NCBI RefSeq assembly: GCF_000190735.1
Contig: NC_015177.1
Coordinates: forward strand, 1,612,001-1,676,000
Direction: 5' to 3'
Origin: Pseudopedobacter saltans DSM 12145
GTDB lineage: Bacteria; Bacteroidota; Bacteroidia; Sphingobacteriales; Sphingobacteriaceae
Length of the DNA: 64,000 nt
A program made the position numbers and the translations under genes. Positions 24,354-39,875 of this stretch are shown here, one piece after another (position 1 is the stretch's first letter; each line of letters opens with the position of its first letter). The notes beneath the pieces were generated by a model that was given only the letters and a program-made list of their open reading frames with translations, had not been told where the DNA came from and did not search any database.

Positions 24354-24373
24354 AGAGCTAATAGCTTAGCTCT
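24354..24373 (-). terminator. Hairpin of the TPP riboswitch expression platform
   Basis: On the minus strand AGAGCTAA pairs with TTAGCTCT (8 bp, 4-nt loop), directly after the TPP aptamer and followed by GTTTGGCTTTTTC. It looks like a weak intrinsic terminator lying between aptamer and thiS. Confidence 0.6.
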
Positions 24374-24456
24374 TACTTTTCCCTTCGGCAGTATGAACTG
24401 CATCAGGTTCGGAGGGTATAATCTCAGCCCACAAATATGGGACACCCCTAAAGTTT
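24374..24456 (-). promoter_or_regulatory. TPP riboswitch (THI element)
   Basis: Minus strand, upstream of thiS. The conserved blocks appear in order: a 5' P1 strand with GGGGTG, GGCTGAGATTATACCC, CCGAACCTGATGCAG, TTCATACTGCCGAAGGGA. These are the standard TPP-aptamer core (CUGAGA, ACCC, GAACCUGAU, and the AGGGA closing strand). CTTT (24450-24453) can pair with AAAG at the 3' end to close P1. It should repress the thi operon when thiamine pyrophosphate is abundant. Confidence 0.96.
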
Positions 24457-24460
24457 GTTC

Positions 24461-25010: not shown

Positions 25011-25034
25011 ACAATAACATAATCAAATAAAAAA

Positions 25035-25058
25035 GAGGGTAACTAAAAAGCTACCCTC
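25035..25058 (-). terminator. Terminator after alaS
   Basis: On the minus strand GAGGGTAGCT pairs with AGTTACCCTC (one G-U pair) around TTTT and is followed by TTTTTT. It is 26 nt past the alaS stop. Confidence 0.88.
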
Positions 25059-25083
25059 TTCAATCTCAAAACAAAAGAGATTA

Positions 25084-27720
25084 CTATTTTAAATAAATTA
25101 TCGCCTTTTCTAACGCAGATTTTAATCCCTCTGGATTTTTTCCTCCCGCTGTTGCATAAAACGGTTGTCCACCACCCCCACCATTGATTTCTTTAGCAAG
25201 TTCCCTGATGATTTTTCCAGCGTCCAAACCTTTTTCCTTAACCAGATTATCGGAAATCATCACAGTCAAATTCGGTTTACCGTCTATGTTTGCACCCAAG
25301 ACCAAAAACAGGTTATCTACAATATCTTTTAGTTGATAAGCTAAGTTCTTAATCGCTTCAGCATTAGATAAATCTATTTCTTCCGCAATTAAATTTACAT
25401 CATTTACTACTGTTACTTTAGACTTTAATACGTCTTTCAGAACCGAAGCTTTTTCTAACACGGATTTTTCGATTTCTTTCTTTAGTTTATTGTTTTCTTC
25501 CAATAAAGATTCTACACTTTTTGTAAGATCCTTAGGGTTCTTCAACAACTCTTTTAAAACCGCTAAAAGTTGAGCCTGATTATTTATATATTCTTCTGCT
25601 TTATCAGCAGTAATAGCTTCAATTCTTCTAACACCTGCAGCAACGGCACTTTCAGATACAATTTTGAAGTAACCGATTTGCCCGGTTGCCTTTACGTGAG
25701 TACCACCGCAAAGCTCTTTCGAATAGCTATCATCAAAAGTAATTACGCGAACGTAGTCACCATACTTCTCACCAAACAAGGCTGTTACTCCACTTTCCAG
25801 GGCTTTTTGGTAAGGTACATTGCGTTCCTCCTTTAAAGGAATATTCTCTCTAACCTTTTGGTTAACGATAGCTTCAATTTTTGCGATTTCCTGCTCTGTA
25901 ACTTTAGAAAAATGAGAAAAGTCAAAACGCAGTACATCCGCATTAACCAAAGATCCTTTCTGGTTCACGTGATCCCCCAACACTGCTTTTAAGGCAGCAT
26001 GTAACAGGTGGGTTGCAGAGTGATTATTTTCCGTCAATCTTCTGGTATGAACATTAACTTTTGCTATAAAGGTTGCATTTAAATTATGAGGTAAGACATC
26101 AGCAAAATGAATAATCAAGCCATTCTCCTTCTTGGTATCATTGATTATTATACTTTCGTTTTCATTTTCCAAAACGCCGCTATCGCCTACCTGACCGCCA
26201 CTTTCTGCATAAAATGGAGTCACATCTAATACCAGCTGGTATTGTTCTTTACCTTTAGCTTTAACTTTTCTGTATTTTAAAATTCTGGAAGTAGCAACTA
26301 CCTCGTCATAACCAACAAATTCTACTTCATCATCTTCGTTCACGGTTATCCAATCCCCTGCATCTATAGCTGTTGCCGCTCTCGAACGCTCTTTCTGCTT
26401 TTGTAATTCCGTATCGAAACCCGCCATATCAACAGTTAAACCCTTCTCCCTCGCCATTAATTCGGTAAGATCAATTGGAAAACCGTAAGTATCATATAAT
26501 TCAAAAGCGAAAGCCCCGTCAATTTGCCTATCCTGGTTGTCCTGAATATACTTCTCGAAACGGTTGATTCCATTTTCCAAAGTTCTCAAAAAGGAGTTTT
26601 CCTCTTCCAGAATTACTTTCTGAACAAAATCCTGTTGAGATATCAATTCATCAAAAACCCCCTTAAACTGCGCAGCCAATAAAGGCACCAGCTTATTTAA
26701 AAATGGTTCCTTAAAGCCCAGATACTGGTATGCATAACGAACCGCTCTTCTCAGGATACGACGAATAACATAACCTGCTTTGTTATTTGATGGCAATTGT
26801 CCGTCAGCAATAGCAAAAGCAATAGCTCTGATATGATCGGCCATTACACGCATAGCAACCGCTTGTCCCCAGTCTTTATCATCAGGAGTAGCAGCGGCGT
26901 TGTATGGTATACCGGCTGATTTAGAAATAAAGTCAATGATTGGTGTAAAAACATCAGAATCGTAATTAGATGTTTTACCCTGGATAACACGTACAAGGCG
27001 CTCGAATCCCATTCCAGTATCCACATGTTGCGCAGGAAGCTTTTTCAAAGAACCGTCTTTTAAACGGTTAAACTCCATAAATACATTATTCCATATTTCA
27101 ATTACCTGCGGATCATCAGCATTTACCAAAGTCGCACCGTCTACTTTTGCTCTTTCCTCGTCAGACCTGTTGTCAAAATGGATCTCAGAACACGGACCAC
27201 AAGGCCCTGTATCTCCCATTTCCCAGAAATTATCTTTTTTGTTTCCTTTTAAAATCCTGCTTTCAGGAACAAATGCTTTCCAAAAATCATAAGCATCCTG
27301 ATCCATTGGTAACCCCTCTTTCTCGTCCCCTTCAAAAACAGTTACATATAAACGATCTTTATCCAATTTAAGAACATCCGTAAGCAATTCCCAGCTCCAT
27401 GCTATAGCTTCCTTCTTGAAATAGTCACCAAAGCTCCAGTTTCCAAGCATTTCAAACATGGTATGGTGATAGGTATCTATACCTACCTCTTCCAGATCAT
27501 TATGCTTTCCCGAAACGCGTAAACATCTTTGCGTATCGGCAACACGAGGATATTTTATAGGTGCTTCCCCTAAAAATAAGTCTTTAAACTGGTTCATACC
27601 TGCATTGGTAAACATCAATGTAGGATCATTCTTAACAACAATTGGTGCTGATGGAACTATTTGATGGCCTTTAGAAGCGAAAAAGTCTAAAAAAGCCTGA
27701 CGAATTTCTTTAGCAGTCAT
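25084..27720 (-). CDS. alaS: Alanyl-tRNA synthetase
   Basis: 878 residues from ATG 27720 ([14 protein letters not shown]). The class II catalytic core (1-250) includes [34 protein letters not shown] and TGMGFERL. The editing domain has the zinc motif pair [13 protein letters not shown] and [13 protein letters not shown]-terminal oligomer/C-Ala domain ends with [18 protein letters not shown] longer frame beginning at a TTG (27738) is ruled out because that codon lies inside the promoter box at 27736-27743; ATG 27726 would leave a leader of only a few bases. It charges tRNA-Ala. Single-gene transcript with its own promoter and terminator. Confidence 0.97.
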
Positions 27721-35530: not shown

Positions 35531-36325
35531 TTAATTACTTGATGCGTTACGAGAACGAATATTATTAATGAAGCCATCTATATGCGATAGATAATCACTG
35601 CCATCGGCTTTTAAAGTCTTTACAAATGCAGATCCTACGATTGCTCCATTTGCATATTTACTTGCCCGCATAAAAGACTGATTATCTGAAATTCCAAAAC
35701 CAATAATTAAAGGGTTTTTCAAATTCATTGATTTCACTCTTTCGTAATATGAAGTAATTTTATCTGACACATCTAAGGCACTTCCCGTAGTAGCAGAAGA
35801 TGACAACAGATAAATAAATCCAGATGACAAATCATCAATTTTTCGGATTCGTTCTTCTGAGGTTTGCGGCGTTACTATAAAAATATTGCTTAAACCGTTG
35901 TCCAGAAAATCATTTTTGTATAATTCTTCGTATTCATACATTGGTAAATCCGGAACGATAATGCCGTCAACCCCAACTTCACGGGCTTTTGTACAAAATT
36001 CTTTAACTCCATATTGAATCATTGGATTAACATAGCCCATTAATAAAATAGGAATGTTTACTCTTTTGCGTAAGTCTTTTAGCTGTTCGAAAAGGACTTT
36101 GACTGTCATTCCATTCTCTAAAGCTCTTTGCGAACTGGCCTGAATTACCGGTCCATCAGCTACGGGATCTGAATATGGGAAACCTATTTCCAGAAAGTCT
36201 GCTCCTGCAGCTTCTAGTTTTTCGGCTATTCTTAGTGTAGCATCCAGCTCAGGATATCCCGCTGTAAAATATATAGATAGAATATTCTCTTTTTTCTCTT
36301 GAAAAAGCTTTTGTAATCTGTTCAT
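35531..36325 (-). CDS. trpA: Tryptophan synthase alpha chain
   Basis: 264 residues. SIYFTAGYPELDATLRIAEKL, LEIGFPYSDPVADGPVIQAS (catalytic Glu and Asp), GVDGIIVPDLPMYEYEELY, FIYLLSSSATTG and PLIIGFGISDNQSF are typical. It cleaves indole-glycerol phosphate to indole for TrpB. The start codon directly follows a 7-bp tandem repeat, with no Shine-Dalgarno sequence. Last gene of the operon. Confidence 0.97.
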   Translation of the reverse strand: MNRLQKLFQEKKENILSIYFTAGYPELDATLRIAEKLEAAGADFLEIGFPYSDPVADGPVIQASSQRALENGMTVKVLFEQLKDLRKRVNIPILLMGYVNPMIQYGVKEFCTKAREVGVDGIIVPDLPMYEYEELYKNDFLDNGLSNIFIVTPQTSEERIRKIDDLSSGFIYLLSSSATTGSALDVSDKITSYYERVKSMNLKNPLIIGFGISDNQSFMRASKYANGAIVGSAFVKTLKADGSDYLSHIDGFINNIRSRNASSN

Positions 36326-36405: not shown

Positions 36406-37596
36406 TTATAAATTAAAATACTTCATAAAAGTTGCCAGGTCCTTATCTCCTCTTCCCGACAAACAAACCACTACATTTTCACCACCTTCGAATTTCATTT
36501 TCTCCAACTGAGCCAATGCATGTGCCGATTCTATTGCCGGTATTATTCCCTCTAGTTTTGACAATAACATACAAGCCTGCAAAGCTTCATCATCCGTAAT
36601 ACTTACATATTCGGCTCTCTTCACTTTATGTAAATGTGCATGCTGAGGCCCTATTCCAGGATAATCCAAACCGGCAGAAATAGAATATGGTTCTACTACC
36701 TGACCATCTTCTGTTTGCATTAATATTGTTTTTGAACCATGTAACACCCCTTCTTTTCCTAATTTTGATGTTGCGGCAGAATGTCCTGATTCTATACCCA
36801 ATCCGGCAGCTTCAGCAGCAATCAGTTTAACATTTTCATCATCAAGAAAATGATAAAACATTCCCATGGCATTACTTCCTCCGCCCACACAAGCCAACAC
36901 ATAATCAGGAAATTCTGATCCGGTATGCTCTTTTAATTGCTTTTTGGTTTCTTCGGAGATGATTGATTGAAATTGAGCTACCATCTCTGGATAAGGATGG
37001 GGCCCCACTACCGAACCTATAATGTAATGAGTATCTTCCGGATTGTTTATCCAGTCTCTCATTGCCTCATTTGTAGCGTCTTTTAAGGTTTTACTTCCAG
37101 ACGTAGATGGTATAACCGTTGCTCCCATCATTTTCATACGAGCTACATTTGGAGCCTGACGTTCTATGTCTATCTCTCCCATATACACTACACATTCCAA
37201 CCCTTTTAACGCACACACTGTAGCCGTTGCTACGCCATGCTGTCCGGCACCTGTTTCTGCTATAATCCTCTTCTTACCTAGTTTTTGGGCCAATAAAATT
37301 TGCCCTACTGTATTGTTAACTTTATGCGCTCCGGTATGGTTAAGGTCTTCCCTTTTCAGGAAAATATTCGCCCCGTATCTTTCAGATAATCTTCTGGCGT
37401 AATAAAGTGGCGAAGGGCGTCCAACATAATCTTTCAATAAAGATTTAAACTCTTTCTGGAAATCTTCGCTTGCAATAATGGATTCATAATTCAATCTTAG
37501 TTCTTCTACATTCGGATAAAGCATCTCAGGAATGTAAGCTCCTCCAAAATCCCCATAATATCCATTTTCGGATATTCTGTATTTACTATTTCCCAT
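36406..37596 (-). CDS. trpB: Tryptophan synthase beta chain
   Basis: 396 residues. The PLP-binding Lys is in [20 protein letters not shown], the active-site Glu in [20 protein letters not shown], the phosphate loop in [15 protein letters not shown] and GRGDKDL at the C terminus. It joins indole with serine. ATG 37596 is 1 nt from the end of trpF. Confidence 0.98.
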
Positions 37597-37597
37597 G

Positions 37598-38221
37598 TTA
37601 TTCTCTTATATTTTTTAATGCTTTTTCAAGCAGTTCTACATTTTTTATTCCCGGTTCTATTTCAAATTTCGAATTCAGATCAACAGCATATAGTTGTGAA
37701 TGATTCAATTCCCTGGCCTTTTCCAGGTTTTCAACATCTAGTCCACCGCTCAGGAAGAAAGGTTTGCTTAGCTGGTATTTGTTTAAAATATCCCAGCCAA
37801 ATGTTTTACCTGAACCTCCGTAATTTATTGTTTTTGTATCGAACAAAAAGAAATCAACTACATCTTCGAAAGCTTTCAGACTTTCGAAATCAAAATTTTC
37901 ATCAACACCAAAAGCTTTGATAATAGAAAATCCCTCTTTCTTAATTTCTGTACAAAACTCGGGACTTTCATCTCCATGTAATTGAACGGTGGAAATTCCA
38001 TATATTCTGCTAAATTCCACTACTTCATTTACATGTGCATTTACAAAGACTGCTACTTTTCTTATCCGCGGATCGATATTTTGTATATGCTGTCTTTCGA
38101 AATCGAGCCCTACAAATCTTTTTGATTTTGGATAAAAGATAAATCCCATAAAATCCGGAGACAGGGCTGAAACTTCAGCAATATTTCTTTCATACTTCAT
38201 CCCACAAATCTTAACCTTCAT
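37598..38221 (-). CDS. trpF: Phosphoribosylanthranilate isomerase
   Basis: 207 residues. [20 protein letters not shown] holds the catalytic Cys, [13 protein letters not shown] and [12 protein letters not shown] the substrate sites, [20 protein letters not shown] the catalytic Asp, and [13 protein letters not shown] the phosphate loop. It sits between trpD (3-nt gap) and trpB (1-nt gap); trpC is not in this operon. Confidence 0.95.
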
Positions 38222-38224
38222 CTC

Positions 38225-39223
38225 CTAGTTTGAAATTGATATTAATTTATTAAATGACTTTTTGGCATTACCGGATAGTAACGACTCCTCTGCCTTATAA
38301 TAACAATCGGCAAATGATAAACCCGGCTCCATGGTATTAATCGCCAAAGCCGCATTTACTAAAACCACATTATTTTGTTCTGTTGTTGCCTGATTATTCA
38401 ATACATCCTGAAAAATACTGGCTGAATCTTCCACGGTAGACCCTCCGGCTATGGTTGAAGGATCTATCTTTTCAAAACCCAGAGATTCTATCTGATAAAT
38501 TTTCTCTCCGCCATTAGAAAAGACTTTGAAGTCGCAGGTTAAAGAAACTTCGTCGTATCCTTCCAGTGCATGAAGAATGGTGTAATTTGTATTAGATTGC
38601 TGATATAGATAAGCGTATAATCTCGCTAACTCTAGACTAAATACACCTACTATTTGGTTCTGTGGTTTGGCCGGATTAATCATCGGTCCCAACATATTGA
38701 AAAATGTTTTTATCCCCAACGCTTTTCTTATTGGAGCTACATTTTTCATAGCCGGATGAAATAATGGAGCATGTAAGAAACAGATTCCAGCCTGATCGAG
38801 GCTCTTATGCAGCGCGCTCATATCGTTCGTAAACTTATAGCCCAGATATTCCATTACGTTAGACGATCCACAACCCGAGGAAACCCCGTAATTACCGTGT
38901 TTAGCAACATGATATCCAGCTCCTGCAACAACAAAAGAAGCCAGCGTGGAAATATTAAAAGTGTCCTTGCCGTCTCCGCCTGTACCGCAAAGATCTATCA
39001 GGTTAAACTCCTTATTCAAATCTACCTGAAGGCTTAGCTCGAGCATAGCGTCCCTAAAACCAGAAAGTTCTTCTATAGTGATGTTCCTCATACAATATGC
39101 GGTAATAAAAGCCGTCATCTGGCTTTCATTAAATGCTCCTGAGGTCATTTTCGTCAGAATTTCTTTAGACTGTTCGCGAGTAAAAGTCTTATGTTCGAAT
39201 AGTGTGTTTAATATCTGTTTCAT
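38225..39223 (-). CDS. trpD: Anthranilate phosphoribosyltransferase
   Basis: 332 residues. LIDLCGTGGDGKDTFNISTL (phosphoribosyl diphosphate loop), KHGNYGVSSGCGSSNVMEYLG, HPAMKNVAPIRKALGIKTFFN and GPMINPA are all characteristic. First structural gene of this trp operon, immediately behind the attenuator-like leader. trpE and trpG, which usually precede it, are not present here. Confidence 0.96.
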   Translation of the reverse strand: MKQILNTLFEHKTFTREQSKEILTKMTSGAFNESQMTAFITAYCMRNITIEELSGFRDAMLELSLQVDLNKEFNLIDLCGTGGDGKDTFNISTLASFVVAGAGYHVAKHGNYGVSSGCGSSNVMEYLGYKFTNDMSALHKSLDQAGICFLHAPLFHPAMKNVAPIRKALGIKTFFNMLGPMINPAKPQNQIVGVFSLELARLYAYLYQQSNTNYTILHALEGYDEVSLTCDFKVFSNGGEKIYQIESLGFEKIDPSTIAGGSTVEDSASIFQDVLNNQATTEQNNVVLVNAALAINTMEPGLSFADCYYKAEESLLSGNAKKSFNKLISISN

Positions 39224-39281: not shown

Positions 39282-39315
39282 TTAAAAAAAAAGGGCAACC
39301 AAATTGGCAGCCCTT
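39282..39315 (-). terminator. trp attenuator terminator hairpin
   Basis: On the minus strand AAGGGCTGCCA pairs with TGGTTGCCCTT (one mismatch, one G-U pair) across a short loop, followed by a run of nine T. It is 59 nt before the trpD ATG and 35 nt past the leader-peptide stop, so it can terminate before the structural genes. Confidence 0.85.
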
Positions 39316-39350
39316 CAAGTATTTTTATGTAGTTATATACAGCAGGTTGC

Positions 39351-39401
39351 CTACGATAAATCGCAGATCCACCAACCAATATTTACTACAGTGTTTACCA
39401 T
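39351..39401 (-). CDS. trpL: Trp leader peptide (attenuator)
   Basis: A 16-residue open frame, MVNTVVNIGWWICDLS, with two adjacent TGG codons (39369-39374), followed by the terminator hairpin at 39282-39315 and then trpD. The GGCAACC just after the stop (39345-39351, minus strand) is an exact complement of the 3' arm of the terminator and a 6-of-7 match to its 5' arm, so it can act as an anti-terminator strand. GGTTG over the Trp codons can pair with CAACC of the same segment. This is the full layout of a ribosome-mediated attenuator. Too short for gene callers. Expression is not shown, and the assignment is by structure. Confidence 0.8.
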   Translation of the reverse strand: MVNTVVNIGWWICDLS

Positions 39402-39462
39402 TTCTTTACTTATGTTACAAATATGATAATTAATTCAAAAGTTTAAAAATATTTTTCAAGAA

Positions 39463-39771
39463 TTATTTATCGTTCGCTGTTTTTTTCTTTGTTTCTTTTA
39501 AACCTGCAACCGGCATATTAAAAATCAGGGTGGTATCTGGTTTATATACCCTCATAGCGAAATTTCCTTCCGGCTTTAATATCGGCATATTATCCTCTGG
39601 CTGTGATGCTATCCGCTGATGCATCCTCACCGAATCCTTTAGCCTAAAAGGACGTTTGTCCAATTTCGGAGCGGGTAATTCTATCCGCGGTTTAGCATCT
39701 TCTTTTTCCTGGGAAAAAGACAATGTACTTGTTGCAAGCAACAATATTAAAAGTAACAGCTTCTTATTCAT
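39463..39771 (-). CDS. Small secreted protein, unknown
   Basis: 102 residues with a signal peptide (MNKKLLLLILLLATSTLSFSQ). The mature part is basic and proline-rich (IELPAPKLDKRPFRLKDSVR) with no recognised domain. An ATG two codons upstream (39777) is an equal start; MNKK is the more usual form. It precedes the trp leader by only 61 nt and has no obvious terminator between, so some readthrough into the trp leader is possible. Confidence 0.65.
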   Translation of the reverse strand: MNKKLLLLILLLATSTLSFSQEKEDAKPRIELPAPKLDKRPFRLKDSVRMHQRIASQPEDNMPILKPEGNFAMRVYKPDTTLIFNMPVAGLKETKKKTANDK

Positions 39772-39875
39772 ATACAAGCGTTTAACTAAAACAAGATATA
39801 AATTACACCTGTCAAATCAAAACGGATATATCAGCTTCTGCTTGCTCAACGAAACCTATTTATTTAGAACCAATG

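Follow-up and report, generated by a model that had tools for sequence, protein, structure and literature searches.

The trpD-trpF-trpB-trpA operon (trpDFBA) of Pseudopedobacter saltans is preceded by a leader that we interpret, with a probability of roughly 0.88, as a ribosome-mediated attenuator of transcription, similar in type to the enterobacterial trp attenuator, and as a divergent member of the Bacteroid-trp class. The leader lies on the minus strand of the 64 kb stretch of DNA analysed here (hereafter the window). The reading draws on the parts of the leader, their conservation among relatives, the covariation of the paired strands across the class and the geometry of the whole; transcription of the leader, translation of its peptide, ribosome stalling and a response to tryptophan are predicted from these features.

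The leader contains a reading frame of 16 codons plus stop (39351-39401, minus strand; ATG at 39401-39399, TAG at 39353-39351) encoding the peptide MVNTVVNIGWWICDLS, and both the frame and its Trp run are kept in relatives. The proposed sensor consists of tandem Trp codons, TGG TGG (39369-39374), with TGG TGG TGG at the equivalent place in most relatives. These codons fall within the 5' side of a hairpin between strands 1 and 2 (39328-39390), identified from the MFE fold, the aligned RF01692 structure and a permutation test of 1:2 pairing. The core of strand 2, GGCAACC (39345-39351), assigned from sequence and duplex energies, shares its first base with the last base of the stop codon. Further downstream, the terminator hairpin (39313-39293) reads GGGCTGCC-AATTT-GGTTGCCC and is followed by a U run encoded by nine T (39284-39292). 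Its 5' arm, GGGCTGCC (39306-39313), is strand 3, the putative antiterminator partner of strand 2, and its 3' arm, GGTTGCCC (39293-39300), is strand 4; the arms are recognisable in sequence and fold, and the stem includes a U.U mismatch. Folding of the leader RNA yielded the 1:2 hairpin plus the terminator with a z-score of -3.2, three of 200 shuffled sequences folding as well. A survey of both strands of the window for frames of 8-36 codons combining two consecutive Trp codons with a terminator returned the trpD leader only. The initial annotation had proposed a 16-codon frame with tandem Trp codons at this site, and its coordinates and anatomy hold on reading of the sequence.

The T run is separated by 60 nt from the start of trpD at 39223, the first structural gene (38225-39223), whose orthologues with the same leader are 64-79% identical. 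It is followed on the minus strand by trpF (37598-38221), trpB (36406-37596) and trpA (35531-36325), in the conserved gene order D-F-B-A. Upstream of the frame, 16 nt before its ATG, the sequence CATATTTG (39418-39425, minus strand) is a candidate promoter element, differing by one base from the Bacteroidota -7 box TAnnTTTG and occurring in identical form upstream of the leader in two congeners (L007 and L009). A frame for a small, secreted-looking protein of 104 aa (39463-39777, minus strand) lies between an SDR gene and the leader, whose immediate upstream neighbour in another congener (L015) is the 3' end of the SDR gene. Elsewhere in the window, a TPP riboswitch (RF00059, 72.1 bits) is located at 24363-24459 on the minus strand.

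These parts suggest the following mechanism. When charged tRNA-Trp is ample, the ribosome translating the leader would reach the stop codon and cover strand 2, because strand 2 starts at that codon; the 3:4 terminator would then form and trpDFBA would not be transcribed. When Trp-tRNA is scarce, the ribosome would stall at the two Trp codons and open the 1:2 hairpin, and the freed strand 2 would capture strand 3 as it emerges, ahead of the synthesis of strand 4, precluding the terminator and permitting read-through into trpD.

Matches to the RF01692 model were found in 17 of the 18 genomes of the genus, P. saltans included, and the leaders preceding trpD in the genus encode peptides such as MKNLNVNTIWWWHYENS. 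The nearest named relatives belong to Daejeonella, Pedobacter and Mucilaginibacter. In the Sphingobacteriaceae the leader precedes trpD of a D-F-B-A operon and is present in nearly all members sampled, while in more distant relatives (Flavobacteriales, Dyadobacter and its kin, Marinilabiliaceae) it precedes trpE of a whole E-G-D-C-F-B-A operon. A leader with Trp codons stands before the trp operon at 73 of 76 named Bacteroidota loci with enough upstream sequence, a count that scores leaders dropped as duplicates and those lying farther off as present and leaves out L096, where trpE is cut off; the three loci without a leader are L047, L097 and L119. A run of two or three Trp codons characterises all 52 distinct trpD-type leaders kept and 76 of the 78 trpE-type leaders kept, figures that describe the set rather than an unbiased rate, since the search required paired Trp codons. 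Leaders with Trp codons seem close to universal in the Bacteroidota trp operons sampled. The initial annotation had made its attenuator reading depend on conservation of the short frame and its Trp codons. Both recur upstream of trpD within the genus and family and upstream of trpE in other parts of the phylum, and the alternative strands show either conservation or covariation, all of which supports that reading.

Some loci depart from this pattern. The region within 330 nt of trpD in Pedobacter frigidisoli (L047) has no leader and contains repeated sequence, and the leader may have been displaced by an insertion. Upstream of trpE, L139 and L142 encode peptides in which the Trp run is reduced to one codon at the centre (MIDQKHNNNWRSLPKRKAG in one case, a similar sequence in the other) and keep the terminator; decay and a retuned sensor are both possible.

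A covariance model built from 21 relatives, with the window excluded, recovered the window leader with a score of 63.3 bits and, for the set of sequences searched, an E-value of 9.7e-12. Applied to the complete 4.6 Mb genome, the same model returned the window leader as its best match (E 5.8e-10) and the leader of trpE as the second best (32.6 bits, E 0.0026). A covariance model match at window positions 25030-25126 was rejected as an ordinary terminator behind another gene. The recovery of the window leader by this model bears on one alternative, that the hairpin is an ordinary intrinsic terminator of an upstream gene accompanied by a short frame that arose by chance. In its favour, the small frame at 39777-39463 (minus strand) ends 61 nt before the leader frame, but relatives keep the whole set of leader frame, Trp codons, strand 2 and terminator in front of their trp genes, and this conservation, together with the genome-wide E-value of a model that had never seen the window, leads us to regard the alternative as refuted.

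Pairing of the post-stop strand with each of the two terminator arms had been predicted, and duplex energies agree. In the window, GGCAACC pairs with strand 3 at -10.4 kcal/mol with one A.C mismatch (-11 to -12 kcal/mol in relatives) and with strand 4 at -13.3 kcal/mol through seven perfect pairs. Over 26 leaders, 93.6% of the cells in the terminator helix are paired, and compensatory change of both partners was counted in 13 cells, compared with 2.7 after shuffling. Covariation of strands 2 and 3 was measured by comparing native with swapped duplex energies rather than on a multiple alignment, where several rows, that of the window among them, have strand 2 out of register owing to indels at the stop codon. 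For the antiterminator, native 2:3 duplexes averaged -9.62 kcal/mol and swapped ones -7.68 kcal/mol, a difference reached in none of 5000 permutations; for 1:2 pairing the corresponding values were -10.58 and -9.21 kcal/mol, again with 0 of 5000 permutations, both tests using 54 clusters that are phylogenetically not fully independent. It is the trpE-type leaders that give rise to the 2:3 signal; when only the trpD type is considered, the two strands (GGCAA / TTGCC) are conserved rather than covarying, with a native energy of -9.96 and a swapped energy of -10.47 kcal/mol.

The better fit of strand 2 to strand 4 raises the alternative that antitermination in the window works by capture of the terminator 3' arm instead of strand 3, and strand 2 of the genome's own trpE leader (AACCCGG) likewise matches its strand 4. 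Yet strand 4 is the last to be made and lies beside strand 3, so that the local hairpin should prevail; at equilibrium the window leader folds into 3:4 in all states, the covariation across lineages favours 2:3, and a near-palindromic terminator yields 2:4 pairing for free. We consider capture of strand 4 very improbable. Because strand 4 is made last and adjoins strand 3, and because the relatives support 2:3, we infer that 2:3 is the working antiterminator in the window and that the 2:4 match is a by-product of the near-palindromic terminator.

Equilibrium folding of the stall states did not serve to discriminate stalling at the Trp codons from arrival at the stop codon: it failed in most leaders, the terminator being the most stable structure and winning in nearly every state and leader. 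The proposed mechanism therefore rests on co-transcriptional timing, as attenuation in E. coli is likewise taken to do. Co-transcriptional folding was simulated by folding the RNA as it stands prior to the synthesis of strand 4. For the trpD-type leaders this gave a median occupancy of strand 3 by strand 2 of 0.80 with the ribosome at the Trp codons (0.50 in shuffled sequences), falling to 0.11 once it had reached the stop codon, a clear contrast for the class. The window copy reached 0.59 at the Trp codons against 0.53 in shuffles (p = 0.39), and with the ribosome at the stop codon its occupancy was 0.01; taken alone it is indistinguishable from chance on antiterminator occupancy. Its antiterminator has the right geometry and a strength below that of relatives, with the A.C mismatch in 2:3, and the sensor has two Trp codons.

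This weakness would also be expected of a decayed attenuator, one that once worked and has here become largely unresponsive, so that trpDFBA would be preceded by a partial terminator acting constitutively. Such decay is suggested by the loss of one Trp codon relative to most leaders, by the mismatches in 2:3 and in the terminator stem, and by an antiterminator occupancy not above shuffles. The window leader does belong to the more divergent copies, reading GWW in place of the usual WWW, but GWW recurs in L026, and L026 together with the group of L025, L027 and L029 has only WW with all other parts kept. Set against decay are also the retention of the start codon, the two Trp codons, a stop adjoining strand 2, the nine-T terminator and a strong 1:2 hairpin, as well as a 2:3 energy still near that of relatives. 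On balance, decay is unlikely, and a functional attenuator remains our preferred reading.

The initial annotation had noted trpE as absent, which is correct for the trpDFBA operon and incorrect for the genome, where trpE, trpG and trpC stand together, apart from trpDFBA (G000:C1:3402473-3399331). This cluster has a leader of its own (L039, G000:C1:3402649-3402506), encoding the peptide MNKKTNISKKWWWHKICQPG with three consecutive Trp codons and carrying a terminator directly before trpE. Leaders with paired Trp codons precede all 16 other trpE loci fetched in the genus, and most in the family. The trpE-G-C leader resembles the trpD leader in its Trp-run peptide, its terminator, its position adjoining the first trp gene and its conservation in genus and family, and differs from it in the tail of the peptide and in strands 2-4, which are of the AACCCGG type; in the P. 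saltans copy strand 2 repeats strand 3, and therefore matches strand 4. L039 was matched by no Rfam family, and a search of 14 trpE-leader loci with RF01692 gave no match even at E 2.

A TAnnTTTG element occurs within 60 nt of the leader ATG in 64 of the 78 trpE-type leaders, against 8 of 130 after shuffling. In many of them (as among L120-L163) only 5-9 nt separate the end of this element from the leader ATG, which suggests a putative transcription start so close to the ATG that the mRNAs of trpE-type leaders would be nearly leaderless. Judged by their sequences, both halves of the split trp pathway carry a predicted attenuator, with different strands 2-4, an arrangement common to most of the family. 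A more speculative and rather doubtful extension is that, family-wide, the split pathway is coordinated by these two differently built Trp attenuators, one before trpE-G-C and one before trpD-F-B-A, the former belonging to no described RNA family and being almost without a 5' UTR, and that in P. saltans both have perhaps shifted to capturing the terminator 3' arm.

The trpDFBA leader is confirmed, but as an instance of a kind already known, Bacteroid-trp. What looked like an isolated candidate is now placed in a class reaching far beyond what the RF01692 model detects, and two further points emerge: a split pathway with predicted attenuation of both its halves, and an existing RNA family that is incomplete. 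With a Trp-codon leader on each half of the split operon, coordination of the pathway through attenuation becomes testable. Ribosome-mediated attenuation requires coupled transcription and translation, and it would be informative to test it in the Bacteroidota, where translation initiation largely dispenses with Shine-Dalgarno sequences. Candidate attenuators in Bacteroidetes were reportedly also listed by Vitreschak et al. in 2004.

The initial annotation knew of no trp attenuator characterised in the phylum. This may still hold as far as experiment is concerned, no experimental test in Bacteroidota having been found in the searched open-licence literature, where a Bacteroides thetaiotaomicron transcriptome study contains only unvalidated frames resembling leader peptides, none for trp (PMC7366714). 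It does not hold for prediction: the class is described in silico as Bacteroid-trp (RF01692), a candidate cis-regulatory element of Bacteroidetes (Weinberg et al., 2010; PMC2864571). Rfam lists it under the name Bacteroidete tryptophan peptide leader, and a study of Flavobacterium psychrophilum records it upstream of the trp operon and likens it to the E. coli attenuator (PMC6414381). The novelty is accordingly lower than initially claimed. Under strict search filters, RF01692 matches at or above the cut-off came from 15 of 198 Bacteroidota genomes, every one of them in a single family; the model is narrow and covers only part of the class.

The window leader scored 35.2 bits against RF01692, below the curated cut-off of 49, and by Rfam's rule is no member of the family. 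It lies upstream of trp genes in a member of the Bacteroidota, as RF01692 elements do, and the alignment spans model positions 1-131 of 131, placing the ATG on the model's AUG and the Trp codons in its UGG region. Four relatives with the same layout, three from the genus and one from elsewhere in the family, scored 49.4-54.7 bits, and the over-cut-off leaders of the congeners (L007, L009 and L010) align with the window leader, establishing homology through intermediates. Alignment, intermediates and position together identify it, on sequence grounds, as a divergent relative. Other RF01692 matches in the genome (L002-L006; at most 29.4 bits), with neither an adjoining trp gene nor a frame with tandem Trp codons, were taken as chance. 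A match of the window leader to Phe_leader (RF01859; 27.3 bits, cut-off 55) was likewise rejected, there being no Phe in the frame.

The enterobacterial trp leader model (RF00513) gave no match to the window leader at E up to 10 and, among congeners, only a weak one in a single trpE leader (L127; 28.4 bits, cut-off 41). The window leader nonetheless shares with E. coli trpL a leader peptide with tandem Trp codons, strands 1-4 and a predicted antiterminator that would exclude the terminator, and differs from it in preceding trpD rather than trpE. With Bacteroid-trp it shares the phylum, the site before trp genes, Trp codons at the same model positions, the 1:2 hairpin and the terminator 5' arm, and it differs in its two Trp codons, where Bacteroid-trp has three, and in its sub-cut-off score.
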